Shown: piece by piece, positions 8,274 to 15,286 of the stretch
Position numbering within the stretch: the first letter of the stretch is position 1
Layout of the letters: each line of letters starts with the position of its first letter
NCBI GenBank assembly: GCA_002746155.1
Contig: NVWF01000018.1
Location: 37,238-71,426 of the forward strand
From: Gammaproteobacteria bacterium
GTDB lineage: Bacteria > Pseudomonadota > Gammaproteobacteria > Enterobacterales > GCA-2746155
Length of the DNA stretch: 34,189 nt
Direction of reading: 5' to 3'
Program-made: the position numbers and the translations under genes
The notes under the pieces: generated by a model
Databases searched by the model: none
Seen by the model: only the letters and a program-made list of their open reading frames with translations
Told to the model about the DNA's origin: nothing

Positions 8274-9056
8274 CTAGTGTTCCACAAAAGCTCGTTCAAC
8301 CACATAATCACCCTGAACACCCTTTTTACGGCTTTCTTCAAAACCGAGCATATCAAGTATTTTACCGGTTTCCTTGAGCATCGATGGGCTACCACACATC
8401 ATAACTCGATCAAGTTTAGGATCAAGTTTAGGTAAATCTAGATCAATACATAATTTACCCGTCTTAAGTAAATCTGTTATGCGACCTTGATTCTGGTAGC
8501 GCTCCCGTGTGACACAGGGATAATAAATCAATTGTTCTGATATTATGTCCCCAAGATACTCATGATTCGCCAAATCTTCAGTCAACATCTTATGATAAGC
8601 CACTTCATTGACGAACCTTACACCATGAAATAAAACTACCTTTTCAAAGCGCTCATAGGTTTCAGGATCCTTAATAATACTCAAGAAAGGCGCAAGGCCA
8701 GTTCCTGTTCCGATTAAGAATAAGTTACGACCTCCTCTTAAATCATCTATAACCAACGTTCCCGTTGGCTTAGAACCAATTAACACATCATCACCTTTTT
8801 TTAAGTGTTGAAGCTTAGAGGTCAAGGGACCCTTTTGAACTTTAATGCTAAAGAACTCTAAATGCTCTTCATGATTAGCACTAGCAATGCTGTAAGCTCG
8901 CATCAAGGGTTTACCTGTCTCCTGCTCTAGACCTATCATGATAAATTCACCATTTCTAAAACGCAGACTTTGACTTCGGGTAGTTTTAAAGGAGAACAGA
9001 GTATCATTCCAATGAATGATATCGATGACCTTTTCAGTATTCAATTTACGACTCAT
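8274..9056 (-). CDS. fpr: Ferredoxin/flavodoxin-NADP+ reductase
   Basis: This 260-residue soluble FAD enzyme moves electrons between NADPH and ferredoxin or flavodoxin in the cytoplasm. The family's motifs appear in order. RAYSIAS (53-59) contacts FAD, and KVQKGPLTS (72-80) is the second flavin-contacting stretch. GTGTGLAPF (116-124) lies in the NADP-binding domain, followed by VMMCGSPSML near 217-226. The ending YVVERAFVEH resembles the aromatic-containing C-terminus of the bacterial subclass related to E. coli Fpr and Azotobacter/Pseudomonas FprA. Length is normal. The Shine-Dalgarno is weak. It diverges from the UspE-like gene, and the shared spacer contains a perfect FNR-type box, suggesting control by oxygen status. 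Confidence 0.92.
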   Translation of the reverse strand: MSRKLNTEKVIDIIHWNDTLFSFKTTRSQSLRFRNGEFIMIGLEQETGKPLMRAYSIASANHEEHLEFFSIKVQKGPLTSKLQHLKKGDDVLIGSKPTGTLVIDDLRGGRNLFLIGTGTGLAPFLSIIKDPETYERFEKVVLFHGVRFVNEVAYHKMLTEDLANHEYLGDIISEQLIYYPCVTRERYQNQGRITDLLKTGKLCIDLDLPKLDPKLDRVMMCGSPSMLKETGKILDMLGFEESRKKGVQGDYVVERAFVEH

Positions 9057-9086
9057 AATTTATTTTCTAAACCTGTATAAACCGAT

Positions 9087-9126
9087 ATTCTATTGTTGCT
9101 TAGTTAGTTTTATTGATCTCAATCAA
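9087..9126 (-). promoter_or_regulatory. Predicted FNR-dependent promoter of fpr
   Basis: On the - strand, TAGAAT (9092 to 9087) matches the -10 consensus at five of six positions. Its centre lies 30 bp from the centre of the FNR-type box at 9113-9126, close to class II activator geometry. The position 17 bp upstream (CAATAA) is a poor -35, consistent with activator dependence. Activation and repression cannot be separated by inspection. Confidence 0.35.
9113..9126. promoter_or_regulatory. Perfect FNR/Anr box (TTGAT-N4-ATCAA)
   Basis: TTGATCTCAATCAA matches the consensus for FNR/Anr-type oxygen-responsive regulators at every defined base. It lies in the spacer between fpr and the UspE-like gene, 57 bp from the fpr start codon. 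UspE-like genes are known Anr/FNR-linked genes in several Gammaproteobacteria, which agrees with this placement. A second palindrome, TGATTAATCA (9131-9140), sits just beside it. Confidence 0.75.
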
Positions 9127-9155
9127 ATAATGATTAATCAATTATCAGATATGAT
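9113..9155 (+). promoter_or_regulatory. Predicted class II FNR-activated promoter of uspE-like gene
   Basis: TATGAT at 9150-9155 matches the -10 consensus at five of six positions. A transcription start near 9161-9162 would place the centre of the FNR box at about -42, the classical class II position. No good -35 lies 17 bp upstream of the -10, as expected for an activator-dependent promoter. The leader would be about 86 nt. Confidence 0.5.
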
Positions 9156-9247
9156 GCTTTACTAGGTCGTGAATCCTACAGTAATGCTATTGTTATGAAA
9201 AGATACCTAGCTTTAATTATTTTAAGTTTTTGCCTACGGAGAAAGAA

Positions 9248-10123
9248 ATGAAGAAGATACTAGTCATTGCGGACAAGGATAATGGCCAACAACTCGCTTT
9301 TCAACATGGACTTGAAATTGCAGAAAACACTGCGGCTGTGATTGAATTTGTAGGCTTTGTCCATGCAGCAGGTGTTGATAGCTCTGAATTGCTGACCGAT
9401 GAAGAAAAGCGAAAAATCCGCAATAGCTATACCGAGGAGAAGCAATGTGAGATGGATGATTATTTAGCCTCCATCGACCTCAATGGAATCAATGTTAAGG
9501 TTGATGTGGTTTGGGAAAAGTCATTTGAACAGTGGGTTGTTGCTCGATGTCAGCAGAAATCCTTTGATCTGGTGTTTAAATCAGGCAATCGGTCAGAATC
9601 TTTTCTCTATACCCCCTCTGATTGGCAGCTGATGCGCAGCTGTCCAGAACCCATAATGATAGTGGGAAATAATAATTGGAAGGATGGAGGTATTGTTCTA
9701 GCAGCGTTAGACTTGGGTTCCAATAGTGAAAAAAACCTTACACTAAACGAAAATATCATTCGCAATACATTAAAATTTTCTGAAGCCACCAACTCCACGG
9801 TTCATGCCTGTTATTCCCTATCTATTTCAAAAGCGCTTGCCCATCTAGATGATATTGATCCTCAGGCTTATGAGGCAGAAATGATGGAGAAGATTGATCC
9901 CATTATCCGAAAAATTATTGATGATGCAGGTCTTGATAGAAGCCGTTTACACCTAGTAGCTGGTAACCCTGCTTCAGAGATTTGTCGAATTAGTAAAGAG
10001 ATAGAAGCTGATGTGGTTGTTCTTGGAAATAAATCTAGTCGTAGTGTGCGAGGTAGATTAATGGGTACCACAGCAGAAAATGTTTTACATGAGATTTCAG
10101 CGGATGTTATGGTGGTAAAATAG
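9248..10123 (+). CDS. Tandem universal stress protein (UspE-like)
   Basis: From ATG 9248 the protein is 291 residues, twice a single Usp domain. GGAG lies six bases upstream of this ATG; a TTG at 9230 is in frame but less likely. The first domain (about 1-140) starts with MKKILVIADKD and lacks a clear nucleotide-binding glycine motif. The second (about 145-291) ends with GNKSSRSVRGRLMGTTAENV, which fits the G-x2-x(9)-G-S/T pattern of ATP-binding Usp domains, and terminates in ADVMVVK. The asymmetry resembles UspE, where one domain is degenerate. Such proteins support survival under growth arrest or oxygen limitation. The upstream FNR-type box suggests induction at low oxygen. Product call strong; UspE orthology probable, not proven. 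Confidence 0.87.
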   Translation: MKKILVIADKDNGQQLAFQHGLEIAENTAAVIEFVGFVHAAGVDSSELLTDEEKRKIRNSYTEEKQCEMDDYLASIDLNGINVKVDVVWEKSFEQWVVARCQQKSFDLVFKSGNRSESFLYTPSDWQLMRSCPEPIMIVGNNNWKDGGIVLAALDLGSNSEKNLTLNENIIRNTLKFSEATNSTVHACYSLSISKALAHLDDIDPQAYEAEMMEKIDPIIRKIIDDAGLDRSRLHLVAGNPASEICRISKEIEADVVVLGNKSSRSVRGRLMGTTAENVLHEISADVMVVK

Positions 10124-12477: not shown

Positions 12478-13425
12478 TTAAGAAGGAATAAAACTGATTC
12501 GATAATTATCTTTCCAACTCGCTACATCCATGGCTGTGAAACGAATTGATCGGATTTTGGCTAGCAGTTTCCTCTCAAGTGTTGGATTATTTAATTCAGA
12601 AGATACTATGGATACTTCAGAAACACTACCATCGGCAAGAATTACAATCTTAAAAATGACTTCTCCTTGCATACTCGGCGTTTTTCTTAGTGCACGATTA
12701 TACAAACTAAAGAAGGAGTTTTTATTTTGATCCATGAACTTTTCAATATTTTCTGCAGACCTTTCCGCTAAGCCGCCACCATCACCTGAGCGAGACTGCT
12801 TTATTTTTGCCGCTGAGAGATTACTTGATACTTGACGACTACCTCCTCCTTCAAGCCCCGCACCGCCCATGTTAGTACTAGCTTTAGCAAGAGTTACCCC
12901 GCCACTGCTTTTTACAGCCGTATTAACAATCATGTCACGGGTAACTGTTTTAGCCTTGCCTACATCAGCTGAACTGTTACTTGAATTGGCAATTTTCTTG
13001 CTAGTATCAGCATCTCTAAGATCAGCAAAAACATCAAACACTGCTAAATTTTGTTTGGCTTTTTCTATCGCGTCTTCTCGATTACCCTTAGGCTTAACTT
13101 TAACAATTTCTTTCTCTTTCGGCTTTTCTTTTACTTTTTCTTTAATCTCAGGCTCTTTTTTAACGGGTTCTTCTTTCTTTTCTACCTCAACAATTTCTGG
13201 AGGAGGTGGAGTAACTATTTTACGTTTTTGCTCAAGAACTAGTTTAACAAAACGTTCTGGTATTTCAGCTCGAGTGTGAGGAGATTTTTCTTTCAAGATG
13301 GCAGAAGTAACTAGCCAAGAAAATATAATGGTAAGCAAAATTAAAACAGTAAGAATAAATCGATAATTTCTTTCGTTAGTTTGATCGTCATCCCAAGGAA
13401 GTTGATTATCCATCATCACACTCAT
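12478..13425 (-). CDS. AgmX/PglI-type TonB-like energy transducer
   Basis: The 315-residue protein has one N-terminal transmembrane helix (about 21-44). A Lys/Glu/Pro-rich periplasmic spacer follows at about 70-115, with a PPPPE run and many KEK/KPK steps, then a Ser/Gly-rich linker to about 225. The compact C-terminal domain reads like TonB or AgmX/PglI (GEVIFKIVILADGSVSEVSI, near 256-275). The order of TM anchor, rigid linker and C-terminal domain fits a transducer energised by ExbB/ExbD. Its start overlaps the stop of the second ExbD gene as ATGA. The C-terminal domain resembles those of the Myxococcus gliding proteins GltG and GltJ. No FHA or zinc-ribbon domain is seen at the N-terminus. 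Partner in the outer envelope unknown. Confidence 0.82.
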   Translation of the reverse strand: MSVMMDNQLPWDDDQTNERNYRFILTVLILLTIIFSWLVTSAILKEKSPHTRAEIPERFVKLVLEQKRKIVTPPPPEIVEVEKKEEPVKKEPEIKEKVKEKPKEKEIVKVKPKGNREDAIEKAKQNLAVFDVFADLRDADTSKKIANSSNSSADVGKAKTVTRDMIVNTAVKSSGGVTLAKASTNMGGAGLEGGGSRQVSSNLSAAKIKQSRSGDGGGLAERSAENIEKFMDQNKNSFFSLYNRALRKTPSMQGEVIFKIVILADGSVSEVSIVSSELNNPTLERKLLAKIRSIRFTAMDVASWKDNYRISFIPS

Positions 13426-13928
13426 TTGGCATTCTCCACCGTTTTTTTGCTCACAGCCAAAGAAATCTTTTTAAAGGGAGTTTCTGCTAGGGTTTGCATA
13501 ATACGTTTCAACAGGCGATAAGGAACTTCTTTATCGGCAAGAATGGTTATCTCCGTTCCCTCATCACTCGTTACCTTCTCTTGATCCCACACTTGAGAAG
13601 CATGTTGTAACAGACTCGCCTTTAGACTATCTATCACTCTAAGATCGGTACTAAGCACAGTCTCTACATCTGCAACTTTTTTACCTTGAACAATAATATC
13701 AGTCGCACTTACCATGATAATCAAGCTGTCTTTAGGCACTTCTTCTGCTATGGATTCAGGTAATTTTATCGATTTTGAGTTGGGTAGTTGATGGTCACCT
13801 GAAGAATTAAACAGTAAGAAAAACACCAAAATGGTAAAAATATCCATCAGTGAAACTAGGCTTATAGTCGCAGAGCTCGTTTTTTTATGGCGTCGCTCCA
13901 TTCTTGCTGCTTTAAGGGATCTTTTCAT
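13422..13928 (-). CDS. ExbD/TolR-family protein 2 (Asp retained)
   Basis: The 168-residue protein has a basic cytoplasmic N-terminus and a single transmembrane helix at about 22-42 (SLVSLMDIFTILVFFLLF). The periplasmic domain follows (about 60-165). The transmembrane Asp29 aligns with the proton-carrying Asp25 of E. coli ExbD, so this subunit should be competent for proton coupling. It starts within the stop of the preceding ExbD-like gene (TAATG) and overlaps the transducer gene by ATGA, so production of the three is probably coupled. It is longer than TolR/ExbD of E. coli (about 140 residues) because the periplasmic part is larger. Part of the proton-channel trio with the ExbB-like protein at 14519-15286. 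Confidence 0.88.
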   Translation of the reverse strand: MKRSLKAARMERRHKKTSSATISLVSLMDIFTILVFFLLFNSSGDHQLPNSKSIKLPESIAEEVPKDSLIIMVSATDIIVQGKKVADVETVLSTDLRVIDSLKASLLQHASQVWDQEKVTSDEGTEITILADKEVPYRLLKRIMQTLAETPFKKISLAVSKKTVENAK

Positions 13929-14509
13929 TATTTCCCTCCAGAGCTTGGGGTATCGGGATCAGCTGGTGCTGAACCAATAGAAACATCAGGAAATAGCTCA
14001 CTAGGTAAGTCATCACTTCCAGGGTCTGGTAGTACTAATCTGACAGCATCCATAGCCTGAATAATAAAGTCATAGCTAGTATCAGGTTCAGCTAAGATGG
14101 TAATAGTTGTAGCATCTGCAGCAGAGGCTTTAATGATTTGAAGTTTTTTATTCAACTCGACAAAGGGAGAATAAGCGGTTTGCTCACTGGTAGTTGAGAC
14201 TTCGGTTTGCTCTTGGCTTAGCTCTTTGCTAAGAAGGGGGAATTCAGATATCACGCCACTATTTCTCTCTGCCAAGACTAATTTTGTCTTGCGCAGTATC
14301 ACCTCCAGTTGCATGGGTGGCTTTTCGTCCTTAAGTTGCTCGTTTGATGCTGCACCGGGCAAATTCAGGTTAAGAACCGTTACCTGTGAAAATACTGCAG
14401 TAATCAATAAAAAAGGGATCAATACCACCATCAAATTCATGAAGGCTGTCACATCCAGATCAGCATGAACTTGTTTTTTCTTCCGGTTTCGTTTGCTTTT
14501 ATTAAACAT
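13928..14509 (-). CDS. ExbD/TolR-family protein 1 (Asn in place of key Asp)
   Basis: The 193-residue protein has a very basic N-terminus (KSKRNRKKK), a transmembrane helix at about 23-42 and a periplasmic domain. The segment DLDVTAFMNLMVVLIPFLLI aligns without gaps to DINVTPFIDVMLVLLIIFMV of E. coli ExbD. The position of the essential Asp25 is Asn25 here (codon 14435-14437, AAT). The companion ExbD protein keeps Asp. The subunit may therefore be structural or regulatory within an ExbD heterodimer, or part of a channel with one protonatable site. The C-terminus is Pro/Asp/Ser-rich and probably flexible. It follows the ExbB-like gene after 9 nt. Family clear; the consequence of the substitution is inference. 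Confidence 0.85.
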   Translation of the reverse strand: MFNKSKRNRKKKQVHADLDVTAFMNLMVVLIPFLLITAVFSQVTVLNLNLPGAASNEQLKDEKPPMQLEVILRKTKLVLAERNSGVISEFPLLSKELSQEQTEVSTTSEQTAYSPFVELNKKLQIIKASAADATTITILAEPDTSYDFIIQAMDAVRLVLPDPGSDDLPSELFPDVSIGSAPADPDTPSSGGK

Positions 14510-14518
14510 GTTAAAAGT

Positions 14519-15286
14519 CTAGGAGCTTTGTGGGGTTCTAGGTATTGAAGGCTTGGTCTGCTTGGCCTGCCTTTTTGCCACTTTTATTTGATGCTTACGT
14601 AATAGGTTAATAAATTTTACAGAGACCATTTCCAAACTATCGACAATCTCAGTTGTTTTTGTTTGCAAATAACTAAACGATAATAGCAGTGGTATAGCAG
14701 CCATCAGACCAAAGGCTGTAGTGTTCATTGCAACTGAAATACTGGCTGAAAGTAGATTAGCTTTTTCAGAAGGATCCACATTTGCAACGGCAGTAAAGGC
14801 ACTGATAAGCCCCATAATAGTTCCAAGTAATCCGAGAAGTGTTGCTATGTTCGCAAAAGTCGCTAAGTAAGGAGTACGTTTTTCAAGTTTAGGCATAACT
14901 TCCATCAAGCCTTCTTCCATGGCTAGTTCGACGTCATCGTGACGTTTGCCATGACTACTTTGATCAATTCCATAAGCAAGTATGCGACCAATCTCAGCAT
15001 TTGATTCTTGAGTAACTTGTTGAGCTCGAGCAAAGTCACCTGATGTTAAGAAAGGTAATATCTCGTTCCAGACACGTTTGTTTTTGTGCTTTACACTGGT
15101 TAGAAATATCATTCTTTCGATGGTTATGGCTAACCCAAATATGAAAACCATCAAGATGATATACATAAAGGTTCCCCCTTCTTGCATAAAACGCACAATC
15201 ACTTCCCATGAGCTTTCTTCAATGATGGCTGTTGCGGTTATATCGGCGACCTCGTTTGCGGCTGCCTGAAGAGTTTGGTACATCAT
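14519..15286 (-). CDS. MotA/TolQ/ExbB proton-channel family protein
   Basis: The 255-residue inner-membrane protein has three predicted helices, at about 36-58, 140-165 and 185-208, with a large cytoplasmic loop between the first two. The TM2 segment TLLGLLGTIMGLISAF and the TM3 segment VAMNTTAFGLMAAIPLLL keep the threonines that line the proton path in E. coli ExbB (Thr148 and Thr181 equivalents). A channel that couples the proton gradient to movement is therefore expected, together with the two ExbD-like proteins encoded next. A good AGAGG Shine-Dalgarno precedes the ATG pair at 15286. It resembles AglR of Myxococcus as well as TolQ/ExbB. Absence of TolA, TolB and Pal nearby argues against a Tol system. 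Confidence 0.9.
   Translation of the reverse strand: MMYQTLQAAANEVADITATAIIEESSWEVIVRFMQEGGTFMYIILMVFIFGLAITIERMIFLTSVKHKNKRVWNEILPFLTSGDFARAQQVTQESNAEIGRILAYGIDQSSHGKRHDDVELAMEEGLMEVMPKLEKRTPYLATFANIATLLGLLGTIMGLISAFTAVANVDPSEKANLLSASISVAMNTTAFGLMAAIPLLLSFSYLQTKTTEIVDSLEMVSVKFINLLRKHQIKVAKRQAKQTKPSIPRTPQSS

Follow-up and report, generated by a model that had tools for sequence, protein, structure and literature searches.

In class II promoters of Escherichia coli, the FNR site lies near -41.5 (PMC3688515, Table 1). The promoters of narK, nirB and dmsA belong to this class (PMC3688515). They resemble the locus described here in having a perfect or near-perfect TTGATN4ATCAA box, a poor -35 and an orthologous FNR protein; they differ in the position of the best -10 hexamer, which often lies 21-22 bases from the box, as against 23 and 20 bases here. 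Two other systems offer partial likenesses. A single Crp/Fnr-family site with more than one output is described for Cmr of Mycobacterium tuberculosis (PMC5499769, abstract). In bidirectional promoters of E. coli, sigma-70 transcription runs both ways out of one short piece of DNA, and a CRP site placed at -40.5 is active in them (PMC12825309). The bidirectional promoters, however, use overlapping symmetric elements, whereas the two -10 elements at the present locus are 57 bp apart and flank a site for an activator. The locus lies in a stretch of 34,189 nt, called the window in what follows, for which an original prediction had proposed one FNR box between fpr and a UspE-like gene, near class II geometry on both sides, such that a single site could switch the two divergent genes.

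Both genes had been named rightly. The fpr gene (8274-9056, - strand) encodes a ferredoxin/flavodoxin--NADP(+) reductase of 260 aa that has FAD- and NAD-binding domains (PF00970 and PF00175) and matches the solved structures PDB 1a8p (1e-110) and 2qdx (1e-109) over its full length, as a reductase of this kind should; these matches place it with the Azotobacter/Pseudomonas type of Fpr. It scores below the cut-off of the enterobacterial Fpr equivalog, NF008178. The closest fpr orthologues are 83-86% identical, and Kangiellaceae MAGs contain the nearest named relatives of the gene. The divergent gene (9248-10123, + strand) encodes a tandem universal stress protein of 291 aa (Pfam PF00582, 2.5e-23), which is nearest to UspE (PDB 5cb0, 1.4e-29). 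Although the Pfam Usp family is matched, we call the protein UspE-like, since it scores 168 bits against the UspE equivalog NF008380, below the cut-off of 227. Its preferred start is the ATG at 9248, with a Shine-Dalgarno GGAG in front, over the TTG at 9230; the orthologues L096, L097 and L125-L128 start at an ATG matching 9248. Elsewhere in the window, the translations reveal a MotA/TolQ/ExbB-like gene, two ExbD/TolR-like genes and a TonB-like gene in a row (12478-15286, - strand), with apbE adjoining.

The predicted FNR box, TTGATCTCAATCAA (9113-9126, centre 9119.5), reads directly as TTGATN4ATCAA with no mismatch, correct to the base as first claimed, and is the only perfect copy in the window. 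With up to two mismatches allowed, the window contains 62 FNR-box-like sites, against 38 in shuffles (shuffle maximum, 49). The genome (3.52 Mb in 52 contigs, about 90% complete) encodes two Crp/Fnr-type regulators above the Pfam cut-off, one FNR and one CRP (the latter at L006). The FNR gene (L005:2193-1468) scores 316 bits against NF008365, where the cut-off is 228, and its product matches the solved FNR structures 5cvr/5e44 (3.6e-80), with the cysteines of CETCTISQLC, the second cluster cysteine and the ETVSRLF recognition helix all in register in the alignment. The cell thus has what a class II promoter calls for, an FNR protein with cluster cysteines and a matching recognition helix, and the prediction does not founder on the lack of an fnr/anr gene.

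Perfect boxes are in strong excess genome-wide, 34 compared to 3 for a reversed control pattern. Among the 33 examined in fetched regions, 25 are inside reading frames and 8 are intergenic; a stricter start-codon rule gives 9 intergenic boxes in these regions (window box not counted), the intergenic share being an estimate from the fetched regions. Because about 24-25 of the genome's 34 sit inside reading frames, perfect boxes that arose by chance are common, and perfection alone is weak evidence. The intergenic boxes precede hemN, genes for a NarK-family transporter and a NarX/NarQ-like kinase, moaA, a CBS-domain gene and PPK2. Since classic FNR targets are thus fronted by them, an intergenic perfect box in this genome is more probably real than accidental. 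In the spacer between hemN and a gene for an alginate-export-type porin, two perfect boxes lie 33 bp apart (L143:1563-1609; G000:C23:23562-23608), one for each gene, with a -10 at a gap of 21 in both cases.

On the UspE-like side, the candidate -10, TATGAT (9150-9155, + strand), is 23 bases from the box; on the fpr side, the candidate TAGAAT (9092-9087, - strand; ATTCTA at 9087-9092 on the + strand) is 20 bases away. These gaps correspond to the centre-to-centre distances of 33 and 30 bp given originally. Transcription would be predicted to start at about 9161-9162 (+) for the UspE-like gene and at about 9079-9080 (-) for fpr. The spacer is 73% A+T. The hexamers on the two sides of the box score 5.0 and 5.1, and first-order Markov sequences yield an equally good hexamer at gaps 20-23 in 4-6% of cases per side and on both sides in about 0.25%. 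Given so low a chance probability, the two hexamers may well be real promoters, the imperfect part being their fit to the FNR register. The claim that neither side has a good -35 holds: none was found at 16-18 bp from TATGAT, and between the two start codons there is no sigma-70 -35/-10 pair able to drive either gene. Both promoters therefore have the weak or absent -35 of FNR class II promoters. A search of the spacer for an alternative -35/-10 promoter for fpr found none, and at gaps of 21-22 the window offers only poor hexamers (GATATG and ATATGA; AGAATA and GAATAT).

The register was calibrated on the perfect boxes fetched from three genomes: the window's own, G001 from the same genus and, further removed, G255. 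A script scored the -10 hexamer at each distance from the box, on those sides that have a downstream gene, which gave 51 sides chosen regardless of spacing (window excluded). Another 14 promoters, those of UspE paralogues with one box per gene, were added by hand to make 65 sides; the 51 script-selected sides give the same result as the full set. A hexamer scoring at least 3 is found at a gap of 21 or 22 on 28 of the 65 sides, against 0-5 for other pairs of adjacent gaps. Within gaps 12-33, hexamers that score at least 5 number 11; every one of them is at 21 or 22, and none at 20 or 23. Natural E. coli sites from Table 1 of PMC3688515, scored in the same way, often have their best hexamer at the same gaps when their box is clear (21 for narK, nirB, ynfE and nikA; 22 for narG and focA). 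The spacing expected of a class II promoter, 21-22 bases with the site centred at about -41.5, is found on neither side in the window: by the clade's register each promoter is one base off, in opposite senses, and the layout of 20 + 14 + 23 equals an ideal 21 + 14 + 22 with the box moved by one base. To that extent the near class II geometry of the original prediction has to be corrected. A shift of one base is tolerable, since natural E. coli FNR sites are listed from -40.5 to -42.5 (PMC3688515, Table 1).

Among usp genes under FNR/Anr control, the clade's UspE-like paralogues and the fnr-uspE-ttcA clusters resemble the window in having a tandem Usp gene behind a box. UspE-like paralogues with boxes about 80-160 bases upstream occur in the same genome (L010, L012) and in relatives (L129, L130, L132-L135 and L137; more distantly L120-L122). 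In nearly all of these boxed paralogues the -10 is at a gap of 21-22. At L120 and L121, which come from distant members of the order, a UspE-like gene adjoins both fnr and ttcA in one cluster, with a one-mismatch box between fnr and usp. The window copy differs from these genes in being divergent from fpr, and its own orthologue group is boxless in six relatives.

Single boxes between divergent genes do occur in this genome, which speaks for the original prediction. The spacer between two divergent PPK2 (polyphosphate kinase 2) genes contains a single perfect FNR box (L152:4103-4116; G000:C27:70602-70615), with the -10 hexamers TATAAT and TAGAAT both at a gap of 22. It is like the window box in being one Crp/Fnr-family site between divergent genes, but differs in its exact 22/22 register, and makes the cleaner two-way FNR switch of the two. 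Four genomes have PPK2, and each of them has FNR boxes upstream of it (perfect in G000, G001 and G296, with one mismatch in G299); this recurrence shows the picture of a conserved FNR target in the clade. In G299:C14 (L291:2377-2458), PPK2 is the divergent neighbour of a UspE-like gene, and two near-perfect FNR boxes lie in the spacer that they share.

Conservation of the window box was sought at 109 fpr loci; GTDB genomes supplied 80 of them and a search of the order 29, with some genomes in both sets. None of the 109 has a Usp relative near fpr, which rules out a conserved fpr-usp arrangement, and none has a perfect FNR box at fpr. At two fpr loci (L019 and L020) a box with one mismatch occurs at -119, and hslVU lies on the opposite side; ordinary -35/-10 promoters precede most of the close fpr orthologues that lack a box. 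A box with at most one mismatch is likewise absent at the six closest UspE-like orthologues (L096, L097 and L125-L128; 59-65% identical), so that the box before orthologues that would mark a shared class II target is missing. These six genes sit elsewhere, commonly preceded by a response-regulator-like gene or a tRNA and followed by a kinase-like gene. In the genus-mate G001 (92% complete), fpr has no match at 1e-30 and the Usp matches are all distant, so that it offers no comparison within the genus. The check for a conserved box thus went against the original prediction. With neither the box nor the adjacency of fpr and usp in relatives, both appear to be specific to the window's genome, as far as can be seen.

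Several readings of the locus have to be weighed. A single FNR dimer might serve as class II activator of both genes, with one subunit per polymerase. Such a two-way switch would account for hexamers scoring 5.0 and 5.1 to the left and right of the box, which at gaps 20-23 chance gives in about 0.25% of cases, and for a layout that is ideal apart from the one-base shift, and the two PPK2 genes of the same genome share a true two-way box with gaps of 22/22. We nevertheless consider it doubtful, as both sides are one base off the register obeyed by all strong promoters of the clade, neither half is conserved, and with -10s only 57 bp apart two polymerases on one dimer would probably be crowded. 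The absence of conservation and the faulty register could also be taken to mean that the box arose by chance in a spacer that is 73% A+T, with both promoters FNR-independent, and about 24 of the genome's 34 perfect boxes do lie inside reading frames. That is unlikely, however, given that a divergent spacer with flanking -10s and no -35 has the anatomy of activator-dependent promoters and that the intergenic perfect boxes of this genome mark FNR-type genes.

A regulator placed one base off register may block rather than activate, so that FNR, or the CRP of the genome, could occlude polymerase at one promoter or at both. The genome has a CRP orthologue (L006), and TTTGATCTCAATCAAA departs by one base per half from the CRP pattern TGTGAN6TCACA. 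For FNR, though, the half-sites are perfect, direct repression by FNR in E. coli takes place mostly at other positions (PMC3688515, Table 1), and no competing -35 promoter to repress was found; occlusion by either protein is most improbable. The reading that we favour, with middling confidence, takes the box for a real FNR site, specific to the lineage, that would assist a -35-less promoter, mainly that of the UspE-like gene, with fpr secondary.

According to the favoured reading, the box would have arisen or come into place in this lineage as fpr and the UspE-like gene became divergent neighbours. At low oxygen, [4Fe-4S]-FNR dimers would bind the box at 9113-9126, and bound FNR would bring sigma-70 RNA polymerase to a class II-like promoter that lacks a -35, chiefly the one of the UspE-like gene. 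Activation of this gene would probably be weaker than at the standard FNR promoters of the genome, because its -10 is one base further away than usual. The boxed UspE-like paralogues, with their gaps of 21-22, make the UspE-like side the likelier half of FNR control, and an FNR-assisted promoter for this gene appears to be the best-supported half of the proposal. Any effect on fpr would be secondary, either weak activation from a -10 that is one base too near or, alternatively, competition of two polymerases for the same FNR dimer. The case for fpr comes from the lack of another promoter and from a hexamer one base too near, and an FNR output at fpr is uncertain; we found no literature on direct FNR control of fpr. 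It is possible that one site switches both genes with the fpr half weaker, and the PPK2-PPK2 box, with its gaps of 22/22, shows that one dimer serving two genes is feasible in principle. We infer binding of FNR at the window box, as well as activation and its direction, from the arrangement of these elements.

A bolder view would have one off-register dimer drive both -35-less promoters, as a recent, lineage-specific acquisition in which the spacing is not yet refined. This seems unlikely; if true, a single off-register dimer would couple NADPH/ferredoxin chemistry to a stress protein. The window box is probably a slightly off-register FNR site of a well-known, ordinary kind. If real, it would add to the FNR targets of an uncultured gammaproteobacterium related to Kangiellaceae, and would exemplify how a site responsive to oxygen can be acquired after genes have been rearranged. 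Of greater use is the spacing rule of the clade, by which the -10 of a strong FNR promoter falls exactly 21 or 22 bases from the box; with it, candidate FNR sites can be graded from sequence alone.
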